Shown: positions 26,522 to 33,539, counted from the stretch's first letter. The stretch is 33,711 bases of DNA from an uncultured Hyphomicrobiales bacterium (GCA_902826255.1 CADEEC010000014.1:2480-36190); one strand, 5' to 3'. Numbers and translations are program-made. Notes: generated from the letters alone by a model not told the origin.

Positions 26522-26622
26522 TGCCAGTTTCGGCCCGGAACAGCAATAGAAATCAAGCCTATGCCTTGCCTCCGTCACAGCGGCATGACCATATTTCAGG
26601 CGCGTGCTGACGGGAGCCGTGG

Positions 26623-29600
26623 ATGTCGGAAGGGGAGCGCGAAGGGGCACAGGCCGTCCTGCCGGACGCGCGCGCGCGCGCCGCCGGCAGCGACCGCATG
26701 CGTGCGTTCATCGCCTACAGCCGCGAGGACCTCGATTTTGCCGAGCAACTCGCGACCGGTCTCGACCTCTACGGCTTCGCGCCGCTGATCGACAGGGCGC
26801 GTAGCGCCGGTGGCGAAGCATGGGAGCGCCAGGTCGCCGAACTGATCCGGGACGCCGACACGGTGGTGCTCGTCGTCTCGCCGCACGCTGCAAATTCGCG
26901 CGTATGCGCGTGGCAGGTGGATCAGGCCAACCTGTTCCACAAGCGCGTCATCCCGGTTGCGTGCAAGCCGCTCGATGATGCCGCCGCCGCCCGCAGCCTG
27001 CAGGACCTCAACCACATCGTCTTCTATGCGGACCCGCGCGTGCCCGGCTCGGGCTTCGGGTCCGGCATGGCGCGCCTCGTGCAGACGCTCAACGTCGATC
27101 GCGACTGGCTGCGTGGGCACACGCACCTCCTGCAGCGCGCGATGGCCTGGGACGCTGCGGGGCGGCCGGCCAATCAGGTGCTGCTGGGTGGGGATGTCGC
27201 TGAGGCGAAGGCGTGGGTCGCGCGCAAGCCGAGCGGGGGGCCGGAGCCGACCGAGCTGCATCTCGACTTCATCCGTGCCAGTGAGATCGAAGGCGAAAGC
27301 CTCAAGCACTCCGAGCGCCAGCGCCTGGAAGGGATGGCGGCGGCGCACGCTGAGCGCGCCCAGCAACTGCGGGCCGCAGAACAGGCGAGCCGGAGACGCG
27401 TCGGCTATCGGGTCGCCGTATTTGGCGTGCTGCTGTTGGCGGGCATCAACGCGGCAACCTTGGCGTGGTTCAACTACAACAAGCGGCAATTGGCCCTGGC
27501 GGATGCCCGCCACTGGACAGCCGAGACCAAGCGCGCGGAAGGCGAGACGGTAGCCGCCCATGCCAACACGGCGCGGACGCAGGCCACGCTGGACAGAGTG
27601 GAAGCGGAGAAGCGGCGTACCGAGGAAGAGCTGGGCAAGGTGCAGTCGGCGCAGTCGCGCTTTCTCGCCAAGCAGGCACTCGATGCGCTGCGGGGGCACG
27701 ATTTCACCAGGGCGGCGCTGCTGGCGCTCGAGGCGCTGCCGGGCGCAGGCAGCGGCGACGCACGGCCGATCGTCGCCGGGGTGCCGGCCATCCTGTACCA
27801 AGCGCTGGGCTTGCTGCGCGAGCGGTCGGTGCTGACAGGGCACACGCATCCGATCGCCAGCGTCGCGCTCAGTTCCGACGGCAAGCGCATCGTCACGGGC
27901 TCGCACGACAGCACGGCACGGCTGTGGAACGCGGAGACCGGCAGGCAGATCGAGCTTCTCAAGGGGCACACCAGCCGCGTTGCCAGCGTTGCCTTCAGCC
28001 CGGACGGCAAGTTGATCGTCACGGGGTCGTACGACAGTACGGTTCGGCTTTGGGACGGCGACAAGGGGCGTGAGGTCTCGCAGCTCAAGGGTCATGCCGG
28101 GCTGGTGGTCGGCGCGGCCTTCAGCGCGGACGGCGCCCGCATCATCACCGCTTCCTACGACGGCACGGCGCGCATATGGGATGTCGCCAACGGTACCGAA
28201 GTCGCCGTGCTCAAGGGCCATGGCGCGCAGGTGGTGGGCGCAGCGCTGAGCCCGGACGGCAAGCGCGCGGCGACCGCCTCGTGGGACGGCACCGGGCGCC
28301 TTTGGGATCTCGAGACCGGCAAATCGATCGTTCTCAAGGGTCATGCGGGCCGTGTGGTCAGCGTGGCGTTCAGCGCCGACGGCAAGCGCGTCGCGACCGC
28401 GTCCGCCGACACCACGGCGCGCGTGTGGGATGCGCAGTCGGGCAAGGAATCCTTCGCGGTGAAGGGCCATGAAGGGGCGGTCGTCACCGCACTGTTCGAT
28501 CCGAACTCGATACGGCTGCTGACGGTCTCTGCCGACGGCACGGGGCGCCTGTGGGAGCTGGGGAAGGGCAAGGAAGCTGGCGTTCTCAAGGGCCACTCCG
28601 GCGAGATACTCAGTGCGGCCTTCAACTCGGATGGCTCGAGCATCGTCACGGCGTCCTCGGACCAGACCGCGCGCGTGTGGGATGTGCGGTCGGTCAAGGA
28701 AACGGCGGTGCTGAGGGGGCACTTCGGCGGCGTGCTCGGCGCCGCCTTCAGCCCTGACGACACGCGCGTCGTGACCGTGTCCGAGGACACCACCGCGCGG
28801 GTTTGGGATGCGCAGCCTGCCAAGGGAGTCATCTTGCTGCGCGGCCATGGCAGCGAAGTCGCCGGCAGCGCATTCAGTACCGACGGCAAACGCATCGTCA
28901 CCGCCTCCAACGACAACACCGCGCGCGTGTGGGATGTCGAGTCGGGCGAGGAGCTTGCGTTGATGCAGGGGCACTCGGGCGAAGTGGCCGCCGCCGCGTT
29001 CAGCCCGGACGGCAGGCGTGTGGCGACGGCGTCCTACGACAGCACCGTGCGCTTCTGGGATTCGCTGTCGGGAAAGCAGATCGCCATCCTGCAGGGTCAT
29101 TCGGGCGCCGTGCAGAGCGCCGCCTTCAGCCCGAATGGCAAGCTGCTGCTGACGGCATCCTATGATCGCACCGTGCGCCTGTGGGACGCTGGCAACGGCG
29201 AGGAGCTCGGCGTCAAGCGCGGCTACAGCCGCGGCCTGCGCGACGCCACCTTCAGTCCCGACGGCAGCAAAGGCGTGATCGCCGCGGAGGACGGCACGGC
29301 CCGCATCTGGGATGCGAACTCCGGCAAGGAGCTGCTGGTGCTGAAGGGGCATGTCGCATGGGTGATGAGCGCCGCCTTCAGCGCCGACAACGCCCGCGTC
29401 GTCACCGCCTCGCACGACAACACGGCCCGCATCTGGGATGCGGGCAGCGGCAAGGAGCTGGTCGTGTTGAAGGGTCACGCGGGGTGGGTGATGGGGGCCG
29501 CCTTCAGCCCCGACGGCAAGCGCGTGGTGACCGCCTCCGCGGACCAGACCGCGCGCATCTGGGATGCCAACACCGGTGACGAGATAGCAATACTGCGTGG

Positions 29601-29886
29601 GCACGTGCGCGGCGTGCGCAGCGCGGCCTTCAGCCCGGACGGCACGCGCGTCGTCACCGGTTCGGTCGATCGCACGGCGCGCATCTGGCCGGTGCAGCCT
29701 GCCGTCTCGATCGCGGACCTGATCGCCGACGCGATTACCCGCCTGCCACGCTGCTTGTATCCGAGCGAGCGCGAAGCTGCGTTCCTCGGCAAGGACAGCC
29801 CGGCCTGGTGCACCGAGGCCGGACGTCCGCCTCACCAGGCCCCGCAAGTGTCGTCCACCACCTCGAAGGCATCGGCGAAGAACTAG
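26623..29886 (+). CDS. TIR-domain / single-pass membrane / 15x WD40-repeat protein
   Basis: A 1087-residue multidomain protein. Residues about 26-140 form a TIR domain (MRAFIAYSREDLDFAEQLA, TVVLVVSPHAANSRVCAW, KRVIPV). In NADase-type TIRs a Glu follows in the S-x-x-C-x-x-E motif; here that position is Gln98 (CAWQVDQA). A charged, coiled-coil-like linker leads to one hydrophobic helix at about 262-284 (VAVFGVLLLAGINAATLAWF) and a second Glu/Lys/Ala-rich coiled coil. Next comes the SRFLAKQALDALRG...ALLALEALPG segment common before such propellers. Residues about 403-1025 hold 15 consecutive WD40 repeats of 42 residues, enough for two beta-propellers (7+8 blades). More positive charge before the helix (SRRRVGYR) predicts TIR inside and WD40 in the periplasm. 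The start ATG has CGGGAG about 7 bases upstream. Probably a sensor or scaffold; its role is unknown. Confidence 0.9.
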   Translation: MSEGEREGAQAVLPDARARAAGSDRMRAFIAYSREDLDFAEQLATGLDLYGFAPLIDRARSAGGEAWERQVAELIRDADTVVLVVSPHAANSRVCAWQVDQANLFHKRVIPVACKPLDDAAAARSLQDLNHIVFYADPRVPGSGFGSGMARLVQTLNVDRDWLRGHTHLLQRAMAWDAAGRPANQVLLGGDVAEAKAWVARKPSGGPEPTELHLDFIRASEIEGESLKHSERQRLEGMAAAHAERAQQLRAAEQASRRRVGYRVAVFGVLLLAGINAATLAWFNYNKRQLALADARHWTAETKRAEGETVAAHANTARTQATLDRVEAEKRRTEEELGKVQSAQSRFLAKQALDALRGHDFTRAALLALEALPGAGSGDARPIVAGVPAILYQALGLLRERSVLTGHTHPIASVALSSDGKRIVTGSHDSTARLWNAETGRQIELLKGHTSRVASVAFSPDGKLIVTGSYDSTVRLWDGDKGREVSQLKGHAGLVVGAAFSADGARIITASYDGTARIWDVANGTEVAVLKGHGAQVVGAALSPDGKRAATASWDGTGRLWDLETGKSIVLKGHAGRVVSVAFSADGKRVATASADTTARVWDAQSGKESFAVKGHEGAVVTALFDPNSIRLLTVSADGTGRLWELGKGKEAGVLKGHSGEILSAAFNSDGSSIVTASSDQTARVWDVRSVKETAVLRGHFGGVLGAAFSPDDTRVVTVSEDTTARVWDAQPAKGVILLRGHGSEVAGSAFSTDGKRIVTASNDNTARVWDVESGEELALMQGHSGEVAAAAFSPDGRRVATASYDSTVRFWDSLSGKQIAILQGHSGAVQSAAFSPNGKLLLTASYDRTVRLWDAGNGEELGVKRGYSRGLRDATFSPDGSKGVIAAEDGTARIWDANSGKELLVLKGHVAWVMSAAFSADNARVVTASHDNTARIWDAGSGKELVVLKGHAGWVMGAAFSPDGKRVVTASADQTARIWDANTGDEIAILRGHVRGVRSAAFSPDGTRVVTGSVDRTARIWPVQPAVSIADLIADAITRLPRCLYPSEREAAFLGKDSPAWCTEAGRPPHQAPQVSSTTSKASAKN
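26667..26680 (+). repeat. (CG)7 dinucleotide tract inside the 5' end of the TIR-WD40 gene
   Basis: Seven uninterrupted CG dinucleotides encode the ARARA stretch at about residues 16-20, between the assigned start (26623) and the next in-frame ATG (26698), which is exactly where the TIR domain begins. Such a tract can form Z-DNA and can slip during replication. A change in repeat number would shift the frame of the long form only. Confidence 0.7.
27832..29700 (+). repeat. tandem 126-bp repeats encoding 15 WD40 blades
   Basis: Fifteen head-to-tail units, each about 126 bp (42 codons); the GH dipeptide codons recur at 27841, 27967 and 28093, exactly 126 bases apart. The consensus blade is KGHxGxVxxAAFSPDGKRVV then TASxDxTARIWDxxxGKE. 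Unit 4 is one codon short (KSIVLKGH), unit 6 lacks the usual FSPDG (FDPNS), and unit 12 has GY instead of GH. Units 13-15 are the most alike, suggesting recent expansion at the 3' end. Confidence 0.92.
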
Positions 29887-29973
29887 CCCAGCCGTCGCGG
29901 ATTCCGCTTTGGCCACGCCCAGCCATAATCTCCGTGCACGATGCAGACTCAAATCTCCACTTGGGAGGGGCGG

Positions 29974-30456
29974 ATGACCGTGCTTCGTCACCTTCTGGCC
30001 GTGCTTCTGCTGCCTTTCACGGTAACGGTTTTGGTCCCATGGTGGCTGCTGACGGCATCTGCCGGCGGTGATGTGCGATCGGGCGTCCTTGGCTTCGCCG
30101 GCGCCGCGGTGTTTGCCCTGGGGTTCGTGCTGTTTGCGTGGTGTGTGAGCTTGTTCGCGCGCGTCGGCGAAGGGACACTCGCGCCATGGGACCCGACGCA
30201 AAAGATCGTGGCCGTGGGTCCCTATCGGCACGTCCGCAACCCGATGATCACAGGTGTCGCAACCATGCTGCTGGGAGAAGCGCTCCTCTTCGGGTCGGTG
30301 GCGATCGGTGTCTGGCTTCTGACCTTCGTGACGATCAACCACCTGTACTTCATCGCGTCCGAGGAGCCGGGCCTCGAGCGGCGCTTTGGCGAAAGCTACC
30401 GCATCTACAAGGCCAACGTGCCGCGCTGGCTTCCGCGGCTCTCGCCCTGGGGATGA
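29974..30456 (+). CDS. isoprenylcysteine carboxyl methyltransferase (ICMT/PEMT)-like integral membrane methyltransferase
   Basis: 160-residue membrane protein with about four hydrophobic segments (LLAVLLLPFTVTVLVPWWLL, LGFAGAAVFALGFVLFAWCV, ITGVATMLLGEALLFGSVAI, VWLLTFVTINHLYFIA). The conserved SAM-binding signature of ICMT-like proteins is present: GPYRHVRNPMITGV, then EEPGLERRFGESYRIYKANV followed by PRW. Bacterial members methylate unknown lipids or small molecules, not prenylated proteins. The ATG at 29974 is preferred to one 33 bases upstream because GGGAGGGG lies 3-4 bases before it. It follows the TIR-WD40 gene by 87 bases on the same strand and may be co-transcribed. It converges with pcaG, with only 4 bases between the stops. 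Confidence 0.85.
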   Translation: MTVLRHLLAVLLLPFTVTVLVPWWLLTASAGGDVRSGVLGFAGAAVFALGFVLFAWCVSLFARVGEGTLAPWDPTQKIVAVGPYRHVRNPMITGVATMLLGEALLFGSVAIGVWLLTFVTINHLYFIASEEPGLERRFGESYRIYKANVPRWLPRLSPWG

Positions 30457-30460
30457 AGCC

Positions 30461-31045
30461 TCAGGCGTCGAAGAACACCGTCTCGTTGTCGCCCTGGATG
30501 TGGATGTCGAAGCGATAGACGCCGGGCTTGGCCGGATCGGGTTTTGCCATCAGCGTGTCGCGGCGGCCGGCGGGCACCAAGGCGAGGACGGGATCGGTCG
30601 CGTTGGCAGGGTTATCGGCGAAGTAGATGCGCGTGAACAGCCGCTTGAGGATGCCGCGCGAGAACAGGCCGACGTTGATATGCGGCGCCTGCGTCTTGCC
30701 GTCCGGCCCCGCCACGGTTCCCGGGATCACGGTTGCGAACTGGTAGCCACCGTCTTTCGCGGTGGGGCAGCGCCCGAAGCCGCGGAAGGAGTTGGAGGCA
30801 AGGGGACGTCCGTCGGCGGGATGGGTGTAGCGGCCTTCGCTGTCGGCCTGCCAGATCTCGAGCATGGCATCGGGCAGCGGTGTGCCTTCGCCGTCGAACA
30901 CGCGGCCTTCGATGCGGATGTGCGTGCCAGCCACGCCGGCGTCCGCCACCGTCGGGCTGAATATCTCGCGGAAGCCGAATGGCGCCGGTGCCAGGCCGAC
31001 GTGAAGGAAGGGGCCGACGGTTTGTGACGGGGTACGTCCAGACAT
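30461..31045 (-). CDS. pcaG: protocatechuate 3,4-dioxygenase alpha subunit
   Basis: Non-catalytic partner subunit (194 residues) of the intradiol ring-cleaving enzyme that turns protocatechuate into 3-carboxy-cis,cis-muconate. The sequence begins SGRTPSQTVGPFLHVGLAPA, the classical PcaG opening. It shows GRVFDGEGTPLPDAMLEIWQ, a block with NSFRGFGR, APHINVGLFSRGILKRLFTR, and ends YRFDIHIQGDNETVFFDA, as in Pseudomonas PcaG. The Fe-binding Tyr and His residues of PcaH are not conserved in this subunit, as expected. The ATG at 31045 is taken (AGGA 11 bases upstream); a TTG 9 bases earlier is possible. It is the last gene of the catI-catJ-pcaH-pcaG unit, 48 bases after pcaH. Confidence 0.95.
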   Translation of the reverse strand: MSGRTPSQTVGPFLHVGLAPAPFGFREIFSPTVADAGVAGTHIRIEGRVFDGEGTPLPDAMLEIWQADSEGRYTHPADGRPLASNSFRGFGRCPTAKDGGYQFATVIPGTVAGPDGKTQAPHINVGLFSRGILKRLFTRIYFADNPANATDPVLALVPAGRRDTLMAKPDPAKPGVYRFDIHIQGDNETVFFDA

Positions 31046-31093
31046 AATCTGCAAAGTCCTTTTGGCGTATCAGTGTTGTTGCGGCTTCGACGA

Positions 31094-31795
31094 TCAATCG
31101 AGGTCCGGCGGCGTTTCGCTCGGGCCGCGCAGCACGATGTCGAAGATATAGCCCAGCGCCCATTCGGGCTTGGTCGTCTCCATGTCGAACGAGCAGATCA
31201 TGCGATCGCGCGCCTTCGCATCCGTCACTGAGTTGAAGATCGGGTCGAACGGAAACAGCGGGTCGCCGGGGAAGTACATCTGCGTCACGAGCCGCGTCAG
31301 GAACGACGGCCCGAATAGCGACAGGTGGATGTGCGCCGGCCGCCAGGCGTTGTTGTGGTTGCGCCAGGGATAGGCGCCCGGCTTGATGGTCGTGTATTCG
31401 TAGCGGCCCTCGGCGTCGGTCACCACGCGGCCGGCACCGGTGAAGTTGGGGTCGAGCGGGGCGGGATGCTGGTCGACCTCGTGGATGTAGCGGCCGGCCG
31501 CGTTGCACTGCCAGATCTCCAGCAGTGTATTGGGTACCGCGCGCCCTGCCTCGTCCAGCACGCGCCCCTTGACGATGATGCGCTCGCCGAGGGGCTCGCC
31601 GGCGTGCTGCTTGGTGAGGTCCGCTTCTTCCGGCTTGGCGTCGGAATGGCCATAAACCGGCCCCGTGATCTCCGACAGCGTCTGCGGAATGATGATCAGC
31701 GGCTGCTTGGGCGAGCGGATGCGCGTGCCGACATAGTCCGGCGACAGATACGGCGGGTCGGCGGCATCGCCTGCGCGCGAGTAGGTGTCTTTCAT
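31094..31795 (-). CDS. pcaH: protocatechuate 3,4-dioxygenase beta subunit
   Basis: Catalytic, Fe(III)-binding subunit (233 residues with this start; family about 235-245). Iron ligands known from Pseudomonas are in place: the Tyr in GRYIHEVDQH, the Tyr in KPGAYPWRNHNNAWRPAHIH, and the two His of HIH. Other landmarks are SPDYVGTRIRSPKQPLIIIP, LSEITGPVYGH, PLDPNFTGAGR and the C-terminal YIFDIVLRGPSETPPD. The ATG at 31795 (MKDTYSRAGD) is chosen because AGGAC precedes it by about 9 bases and the length fits; in-frame starts up to 31870 would add hydrophilic residues. It lies downstream of catJ in the same direction. Confidence 0.95.
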   Translation of the reverse strand: MKDTYSRAGDAADPPYLSPDYVGTRIRSPKQPLIIIPQTLSEITGPVYGHSDAKPEEADLTKQHAGEPLGERIIVKGRVLDEAGRAVPNTLLEIWQCNAAGRYIHEVDQHPAPLDPNFTGAGRVVTDAEGRYEYTTIKPGAYPWRNHNNAWRPAHIHLSLFGPSFLTRLVTQMYFPGDPLFPFDPIFNSVTDAKARDRMICSFDMETTKPEWALGYIFDIVLRGPSETPPDLD

Positions 31796-31896
31796 GTGCG
31801 CTTCGTCCTGGTGCTTGGTCTTCAAATCCATGTGGCCCGGTTCGGCTTCGCAGGGCTTGACCATGATCAAGCGCCGCGAGGTTTTCGGCCGGCGCG

Positions 31897-32688
31897 TCAG
31901 GTCCTGGGTTGGTTGGCGGCCTTCGTGCGCGCGTGCAGGTCGCGCAACACGGCGAGTTCCTGCGCCGTCGGCGGTGCCGTGTCCGCGACCTTGCTCGCAA
32001 ACTTCAGCGCCCAGCCGGTGGCGTCGACGATCTGCTCGCGCGTCACGCCGGGGTGGATGGCGGTCACCATCAGCTCGCTCGTCTCCGCATCCGGCTCAAG
32101 CACGCACAGGTCGGTGATGACGCGCGTGGGCCCCTTGGTGGTGACGCCGAGCTTCTCGCGGCTGCCCTTGCCGCTGCCATGTCCCAGCGAGGTGACGAAG
32201 TCTACCTTTTCCACGAACGAGCGCTTGCCCTGCGCCATGGTGATGAACACCTCATGCGTGGAGGTGGCGATCTCGGGCGCACCGCCGCCGCCCGGCAGCC
32301 GCACCTTGGGCTTGTCGTAGGTGCCGCCGATGGCGGTCGTGTTGAGGTTGGCGAACTTGTCGATCTGCGCGCCGCCGAGGAAGCCGACGGTGATGCGTCC
32401 GCCCTGCAGCCAATAGCGAAACATCTCCGGCACCGACACGGTGGTCAGCGCCGTCTCGCACAACTCGCCGTCGCCGATGGAGAGCGGCAGCACGTTGGGC
32501 TTGGTGGCGAGCGTGCCGCTCTCGTAGATCAGCGTGATGTCGGGCGCGTGCGTCAGGCGCGCCAGGTTGCACGCCGCCGACGGCGCGCCGATGCCGACGA
32601 AGCACACATCCGTGTTCTTCAGCACGCGCGACGCCACCACCGTCATCATCTCGGTGGGTGTCCAGGCGTTCTTGCCGGAGGTGCTCAT
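31897..32688 (-). CDS. catJ: 3-oxoadipate CoA-transferase subunit B (CatJ type)
   Basis: Beta subunit (263 residues) of the enzyme that transfers CoA from succinyl-CoA to 3-oxoadipate. It belongs to the glutaconate-CoA-transferase-like branch (CatIJ), not the shorter PcaIJ branch. Family marks are MMTVVASRVLKNTDVCFVGI, the catalytic-Glu motif IYESGTL (Glu56, equivalent to Glu54 of glutaconate CoA-transferase beta), PLSIGDGELCETA, FLGGAQIDKFANLNTTAIGG and VRLPGGGGAPEIAT. The ATG at 32688 overlaps the catI stop by 4 bases (ATGA) and has GGGAGG about 5 bases upstream. Confidence 0.9.
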   Translation of the reverse strand: MSTSGKNAWTPTEMMTVVASRVLKNTDVCFVGIGAPSAACNLARLTHAPDITLIYESGTLATKPNVLPLSIGDGELCETALTTVSVPEMFRYWLQGGRITVGFLGGAQIDKFANLNTTAIGGTYDKPKVRLPGGGGAPEIATSTHEVFITMAQGKRSFVEKVDFVTSLGHGSGKGSREKLGVTTKGPTRVITDLCVLEPDAETSELMVTAIHPGVTREQIVDATGWALKFASKVADTAPPTAQELAVLRDLHARTKAANQPRT

Positions 32689-33539
32689 GCCGCCCTCCCT
32701 TTGCGCGCGTACGGCGCGAAGGCGTCCGGCCCCTTCTTCATCACGTTGGCCTCCATCCAGGCCTTGAAGCTGTCGCGGTCGCGCGAGATCTCGTCCCACG
32801 TCTCGTAGAAGGCGTTGTCGCGCTTGTAGTAGCCCTGAGCGTAGGAGGGATGCGTGCCGCCCGGCACCACCGATACGGCCGTCACGGTCCAGTGCGGCAG
32901 GATGCAGGCGTTGAAGGAGCGCGGCCCGAAATCGTCGACGACTTCTTCCACCGTCACCAGCGAGCGCTTGGCGGACAGCACCGCTTCCTTCTGCACGCCG
33001 ACGATGCCCTCCAGCATCACGTTGCCGGCGCGATCCGCCCTCTGCGCGTGGATGATGGCACTGTCGAGCTGCATGGCCGGCACGGTGGCCAGCGCCTCGC
33101 CGGTGTAGGGGCAGGTGACGGACTTGATGTTTGGGTTCACCCGCGGCAGCTCGGCGCCGCGATAACCGCGGAACACGGCGAACGGCAGCCCGGCCGCGCC
33201 TGCCTCGTAGGCATTGGCCATCGCCGCGTGGCTGTGCTCCTCGATCTCCAGCGGTTGCGGCCAGTTCTTCTCGTAGGCATCGCGGAATCGGTGCAGCGAT
33301 CCGACGCCCGGATTGCCGCCCCAGGAGAACACCATCTTGTTGACGCCGCCCATGCCGATCATCTGGTCGTAGAGGATGTCGGGGGTCATGCGGACGAGGG
33401 TCAGGCCCTTGCGCTTCTGGCGGATGGCCTCGTGGCCGGCCGCGTAGGGGATGAGGTGCGTGAAGCCTTCGAAAGCGGCTTTGTCGCCGTCGCGCACGAC
33501 CTCTTCGACAGCAGCGGAAAGGGGCAGGAGCCTTGCCAT
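32685..33539 (-). CDS. catI: 3-oxoadipate CoA-transferase subunit A (CatI type)
   Basis: Alpha subunit (284 residues) partnering CatJ; together they make 3-oxoadipyl-CoA in the beta-ketoadipate pathway. Typical features are EEVVRDGDKAAFEGFTHLIP near the N-terminus, LVRMTPDILYDQMIGMGGVN, FSWGGNPGVGSLHRFRDA, and a central GNVMLEGIVGVQKEAVLSAK. It is the first gene of the minus-strand unit catI-catJ-pcaH-pcaG. The upstream 172 bases to the window edge carry an inverted repeat that may be the operator. The intervening pathway genes (pcaB, pcaC, pcaD, thiolase) are not in the window. Confidence 0.9.
   Translation of the reverse strand: MARLLPLSAAVEEVVRDGDKAAFEGFTHLIPYAAGHEAIRQKRKGLTLVRMTPDILYDQMIGMGGVNKMVFSWGGNPGVGSLHRFRDAYEKNWPQPLEIEEHSHAAMANAYEAGAAGLPFAVFRGYRGAELPRVNPNIKSVTCPYTGEALATVPAMQLDSAIIHAQRADRAGNVMLEGIVGVQKEAVLSAKRSLVTVEEVVDDFGPRSFNACILPHWTVTAVSVVPGGTHPSYAQGYYKRDNAFYETWDEISRDRDSFKAWMEANVMKKGPDAFAPYARKGRAA

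Follow-up and report, generated by a model that had tools for sequence, protein, structure and literature searches.

The window analysed here, a 33,711-nucleotide stretch of DNA from an uncultured Hyphomicrobiales bacterium, encodes a 1087-residue protein in which an N-terminal TIR domain is joined, through a conserved helical linker, a single predicted membrane helix and a coiled coil, to fifteen WD40 blades and a short tail (26623..29886, + strand). The protein belongs to a family of approximately 80 sequences that share the TIR-linker-membrane helix head. Within this family it alone carries glutamine at position 98, where the relatives have the catalytic glutamate, and its TIR domain has drifted at other conserved positions as well. 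On balance, we favour the reading that the family members are type II single-pass receptors and that, in the window protein, an otherwise intact receptor carries a TIR that has become a pseudo-enzyme. Its biological role may, tentatively, be sought in signalling by assembly or in a decoy or sensor function, or the gene may be in decay.

A constant head with exchangeable C-terminal domains

The open reading frame starts with ATG and is bounded exactly by positions 26623 and 29886; its product is recognised by Pfam as a WD40 protein (492 bits), and its TIR_2 score exceeds the Pfam threshold (64.7 bits, E 3e-17). The TIR domain comprises residues 26-157 (26698..27093) and is followed by the linker (residues 158-222; 27094..27288), delineated by alignment and by the helices of the AlphaFold (AF2) model. 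The membrane helix (residues ~264-283; 27412..27471) is predicted from a hydropathy (KD) of 2.01 and positive-inside statistics. Beyond it lie a coiled-coil or helical stalk (residues 286-371; 27478..27735), the 15 cysteine-free WD40 blades identified by HMM and periodicity (residues 404-1031; 27832..29715), with a unit length of ~42 residues, and a tail whose Cys1044 and Cys1063 (RCL...WC; 29752..29811) probably form a disulfide; all of these features are on the + strand. An antisense reading frame of 1248 residues (26596-30342, - strand) spans the entire WD40 gene and is a shadow ORF arising from the GC3 of 86% and the 126-base repeats. A scan of the locus for promoters and terminators found nothing. 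The host genome is a 4.0-Mb metagenome-assembled genome (MAG) in 340 contigs, ~87% complete, with the window on contig C14.

The structure models agree with this layout. AlphaFold, run on residues 22-230 with a 70-row family alignment, yields the TIR and linker with a pLDDT of 94 and a pTM of 0.89, and a Foldseek comparison of the TIR model with the PDB returns SPARTA first, followed by plant, MyD88 and SARM1 TIRs, with AbTir among the best. The full-length model has a pLDDT of 80 and a pTM of 0.48, so that the placement of its domains relative to each other is unreliable; it features one long helix (residues 211-286) within which the membrane segment lies, another helix at 304-357 and the strands of tandem propellers (402-1023), which Foldseek matches to the tandem propellers 2ymu, AIP1 and APAF-1. 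Reading frame, TIR_2 match, models, Foldseek and blade count thus bear out the architecture, Gln98 included, that an earlier note on this DNA had proposed.

The family was collected with a profile built from the TIR and the ~65 residues after it, which the window protein matches with an E-value of 1.7e-90, itself being one row of that profile. Members occur in 16/103 genomes of the window's bacterial family and, in samples of wider groups, in 18/397 genomes across the order, 3/385 across the class and 7/398 across the phylum, the genome of the window being included in these counts. The 31 family loci in named contigs are mostly from Hyphomicrobiales, with a few from other Pseudomonadota. The gene is patchy, being found in only three of the seven genomes of the window's genus. 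Five plasmid records hold members with 25-34% identity, and no carriage by phages was detected in viral contigs.

In the family alignment the linker is as conserved as the TIR itself, with W162, W176, W198 and S220 each present in at least 96% of sequences, and it follows the pattern DWLR.H..L..A..W...GR...L..G.....A..W....P..P.PT.L...FI.AS. A derivation of the linker from a piece of nSTAND1 receptors, which a likeness in pattern had suggested, was discarded, the linker profile having no match in the nSTAND1 proteins compared. A single hydrophobic helix follows the linker in 65 of the 66 relatives with enough tail. The earlier note had called a membrane-anchored WD40-TIR protein with a substituted catalytic residue poorly described; as predicted from the sequences, the anchor is not peculiar to the window protein but the rule of the family, and Gln98 is the exception.

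What lies beyond the membrane helix varies. Most long members carry WD40 repeats, and others have FGE/SUMF1 (L007, L052), TPR (L044, L046, L049, L098, L106), Sel1 (L029), subtilase (S8; L036, L040) or partial caspase-like domains (L088, L090). A TIR-TM-WD40 relative from the same genus (L034/L113, contig G003:C587) has 17 blades against the 15 of the window protein, so the number of blades varies among relatives. On the Agrobacterium plasmid pAtCG920 (L257:3965-6895) a TIR-linker-TM-WD40 protein continues into an M23/LytM-type domain, in which the motifs normally used for catalysis seem, on inspection by eye, to be degenerate; peptidoglycan endopeptidase is the only annotation of this gene, and IS66 and IS701 genes precede it. 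Another member (L112, G138:C32), encoded in a genome with seven family members, has a degenerate TIR on a long branch, with Glu98 kept and Arg34 and Asp57 lost. A literature search that covered few subscription journals found no account of a family in which a TIR, this linker and a membrane helix are joined to exchangeable outer domains.

Position 98 and the drift of the TIR domain

The Gln98 codon (CAG, 26914..26916, + strand) lies in helix alpha-C. Among 81 unique domains, residue 98 is Glu in 78, a gap in two truncated sequences and Gln only in the window protein, and all of eight further relatives have Glu. The proposal that Gln98 occupies the column of the catalytic glutamate is supported by the homologue alignment, with Glu in 78/78 other unique relatives. 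Its placement in the model is based on alignment and secondary structure, model helix 72-83 corresponding to residues 93-104. In HMM comparisons the family's Glu98 is aligned with the conserved glutamate of Toll-like receptors (TLRs), whose TIRs are the best match of the family profile among PDB sequences. The match to SARM1 pairs profile positions 4-90 with chain residues 5-99 and takes profile position 75 to chain residue 84, which is E642, a register that holds provided that the 8-residue insertion corresponds to the loop preceding helix C.

The same substitution has been made on purpose elsewhere: ThsB E85Q has no TIR catalytic activity (PMC10022894), and SARM1 E642Q is the catalytic-site mutant that was picked for structures (PMC7688312). 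Of the features of an active TIR NADase, the window protein has the TIR fold and, in place of the glutamate in helix C, Gln98. Judging from sequence, NADase activity has very probably been lost; because Gln98 removes the catalytic acid, the window member is most likely a TIR pseudo-enzyme whose receptor is otherwise intact.

Gln98 is one of ten changes among the 39 conserved TIR positions, a loss that exceeds that in 61 of 69 relatives; the other nine are A28, A31, S61, Q70, V71, L83, A89, A123 and T155. The nearest relatives by tree have 0 to 2 such changes, and a sister from the same genus has 6/39 with Glu98 kept; both the window protein and this sister sit on long end branches. Gln98 is thus part of a general drift of this TIR, in a lineage that was already drifting. 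The linker is normal, having lost only two of its 17 columns conserved at 75% or more and kept 15.

Because the sister has drifted with its Glu98 in place, the window gene may simply be decaying: the use of the TIR would have been lost, Gln98 and the other changes would have drifted in, and the receptor would now be functionless. The ten altered TIR positions, the two long branches and the absence of the gene from most genomes of the genus fit this course of events; against it stand an intact frame of 1087 codons with a GC3 of 86%, conservation of the linker, the membrane helix and the cysteine pair of the tail, and a WD40 signature kept in 15/15 blades. The drifted TIR would also be compatible with a decoy role. 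We consider decay unlikely, and a retained non-enzymatic function plausible, albeit somewhat short of probable.

Predicted topology of the proposed receptor

The charge asymmetry about the membrane helix, the types of tail domain, the exported WD40-cytochromes and the terminal cysteine pair agree with each other and, although each is indirect, taken together favour a cytoplasmic TIR with the WD40 domain outside. This family-level evidence (charge, single membrane helix and tail types) is in keeping with the layout that the earlier note had predicted. In the window protein the sequence RRRVGYR borders the membrane helix towards the TIR. Across 65 relatives the 15 residues next to the helix hold on average 4.8 K+R on the TIR side and 2.9 past the helix, both helix and charge rule being predictions from hydropathy and charge. 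The TIR side has the higher count in 57 proteins and the lower count in no protein (Wilcoxon p ~3e-11, a value made too small by the relatedness of the sequences).

The typical location of M23, subtilase and FGE domains is the cell envelope or the space outside the cell. Exported propellers exist in the same bacteria: the genome that contains the window, like others of the genus, encodes proteins in which a signal peptide precedes a WD40 propeller fused to a CxxCH cytochrome c (L224 on G000:C100, L231, L229 and L223). The genus also has kinase-TM-WD40 proteins (L230, L233), with a kinase where the TIR would be, the Pkinase assignment being confirmed for L230.

Past the membrane helix the window protein contains no cysteines other than Cys1044 and Cys1063. 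Among the 24 complete long relatives, 12 have a like-placed RCL...WC pair with similar spacing; others end in different cysteine pairs, which fits the expectation for a probable disulfide. The scarcity of cysteines in the propeller was tried as a proof of topology and set aside: WD40 proteins of the genus with a membrane helix or signal peptide are equally poor in cysteine, and the feature does not discriminate because nearly all sampled WD40 proteins of the genus carry one or the other.

Alternatively, the whole protein might be cytoplasmic or monotopic, i.e. a WD40-regulated TIR akin to TIR-NTPase-WD40 proteins. The WD40 propellers of STAND proteins are often cytoplasmic, and the cytoplasm is the more usual place for the TPR, Sel1 and caspase-like tails of some relatives, which counts against a periplasmic outer part. 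This reading is nevertheless improbable in view of the single membrane helix in 65/66 relatives, the strictness of the charge asymmetry, the M23, subtilase and FGE tails and the exported WD40-cytochrome c proteins of the same genome. From its sequence, the WD40 propeller is likely to be periplasmic.

Other acids, partners and known TIR systems

The window TIR could in principle still act as an NADase or base exchanger through another residue (Glu65, Glu68 or Asp100) or by a mechanism that tolerates Gln. The strongly conserved residues Arg34, Asp57, Trp67, Cys95 and Trp97 are indeed retained. Column statistics argue against all three substitute acids, of which the earlier note had named Glu65 and Glu68 as possible stand-ins: Glu65 is present in 65 family domains alongside Glu98, and an acid at position 100 is common in Glu98 relatives, so neither is a replacement. 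The engineered Glu-to-Gln ThsB is, moreover, dead, and continued catalysis appears decidedly improbable. A sequencing or assembly error at Gln98 is highly improbable: the residue rests on one assembly, the single sequence of an 87% complete MAG, it differs from GAG only in the first base and no further sequence from the species turned up, but nine more changes at conserved positions within the TIR domain indicate, contrary to such an error, genuine drift.

The genes around the TIR gene encode a TonB receptor, a methyltransferase, pcaG/pcaH and CoA transferases, in line with the earlier observation that no known TIR partner is adjacent; neither ThsA nor any other known effector partner of Thoeris adjoins it at this locus. 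The methyltransferase (29941..30456, + strand, 171 aa), which we place outside the system, had been described as ICMT-like. It is a membrane methyltransferase, of the PEMT family rather than ICMT, with PF04191 over the cut-off and ICMT below it. As a conserved neighbour and partner it was rejected, since no homologue lies near any relative and its matches in the genus reach only 27-36%. More generally, among 42 family loci no neighbouring gene family occurs in more than five, and those that recur do so at inconsistent positions. The family gene is a stand-alone gene.

Searches with TIR_2, TIR and ThsB_TIR found no second TIR in the 87%-complete MAG, so there is no visible candidate for pairing with an active TIR; ThsB_TIR (PF08937) has no match in this genome, and the PADLOC ThsB matches are weak (E 3e-4 or worse). 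In another genus (L083/L166, G061:C163) a family member likewise adjoins a CoA-transferase gene, as in the window (29941-33539), and sister genomes have the pca/CoA-transferase block without the TIR gene. The block is possibly a shared insertion spot.

Like animal Toll-like receptors, the family is predicted to join a repeat-built outer sensor to a cytoplasmic TIR by one membrane helix. In contrast to them it has the TIR first, WD40 or another sensor instead of LRRs, and the NADase glutamate in the relatives. With Thoeris ThsB, SPARTA TIR-APAZ and AbTir it shares the TIR fold and, in the relatives, the glutamate of helix C. It differs from these in having neither a ThsA-like partner nor APAZ, in its membrane anchor and large outer domain and, for the window TIR, in the exchange of Glu for Gln. 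The bacterial and plant STAND receptors of the TIR-NTPase-WD40/TPR/LRR type also combine an N-terminal TIR with a C-terminal WD40 or TPR sensor. TIR-WD40 and TIR-TPR architectures have been described in general, usually with an NTPase in between (PMC9153377), whereas the present family has a 65-residue linker and a membrane helix instead of the NTPase; in the full-length model residues 158-402 of the window protein contain only helices, the membrane segment and coiled coil, and no NTPase. One protein of the same bacterial family (L244, G031:C2) reads by eye as TIR-nSTAND1-TM-FGE, so that FGE, an outer domain type of some family members too, would here lie behind a STAND NTPase. Swappable sensors and TIR effectors are shared with those conflict systems that have EADs, FGE/CLec sensors and inactive effectors (PMC7159879, PMC8195603, PMC10907252) and that offer a precedent for catalytically dead effectors (PMC7159879), but the family gene stands alone, with no neighbouring system genes in 42 loci.

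In the members with Glu98, the outer domain would bind a ligand or sense a disturbance of the envelope, the heads would cluster via the helix running from the linker into the membrane, and the TIRs, by analogy with TIR biology, would assemble and cleave NAD+. The window member has most likely lost the cleavage step, and the most that it could do would be to assemble, to tie up partners or ligand, or to attenuate its active relatives. A bolder and rather doubtful extension is that the family represents bacterial reversed Toll-like receptors that sense events at the envelope, e.g. phage attachment; the window protein would then be a natural member without enzyme activity, which either signals through TIR assembly alone or holds active members in check, in analogy to the MyD88-type TIRs of animals.

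Most known bacterial TIR defence proteins are cytoplasmic enzymes. If the receptor reading is true, bacteria would have a direct counterpart of the Toll receptors in this family, whose members are single-gene, single-pass TIR proteins with exchangeable envelope sensors, and it raises the question of whether a bacterial TIR can respond to a signal beyond the inner membrane. The window protein, in turn, carries by nature the Glu-to-Gln exchange that serves as an inactive control in the laboratory, and as such could help to find out if a bacterial TIR can have a function when it does not cleave NAD.
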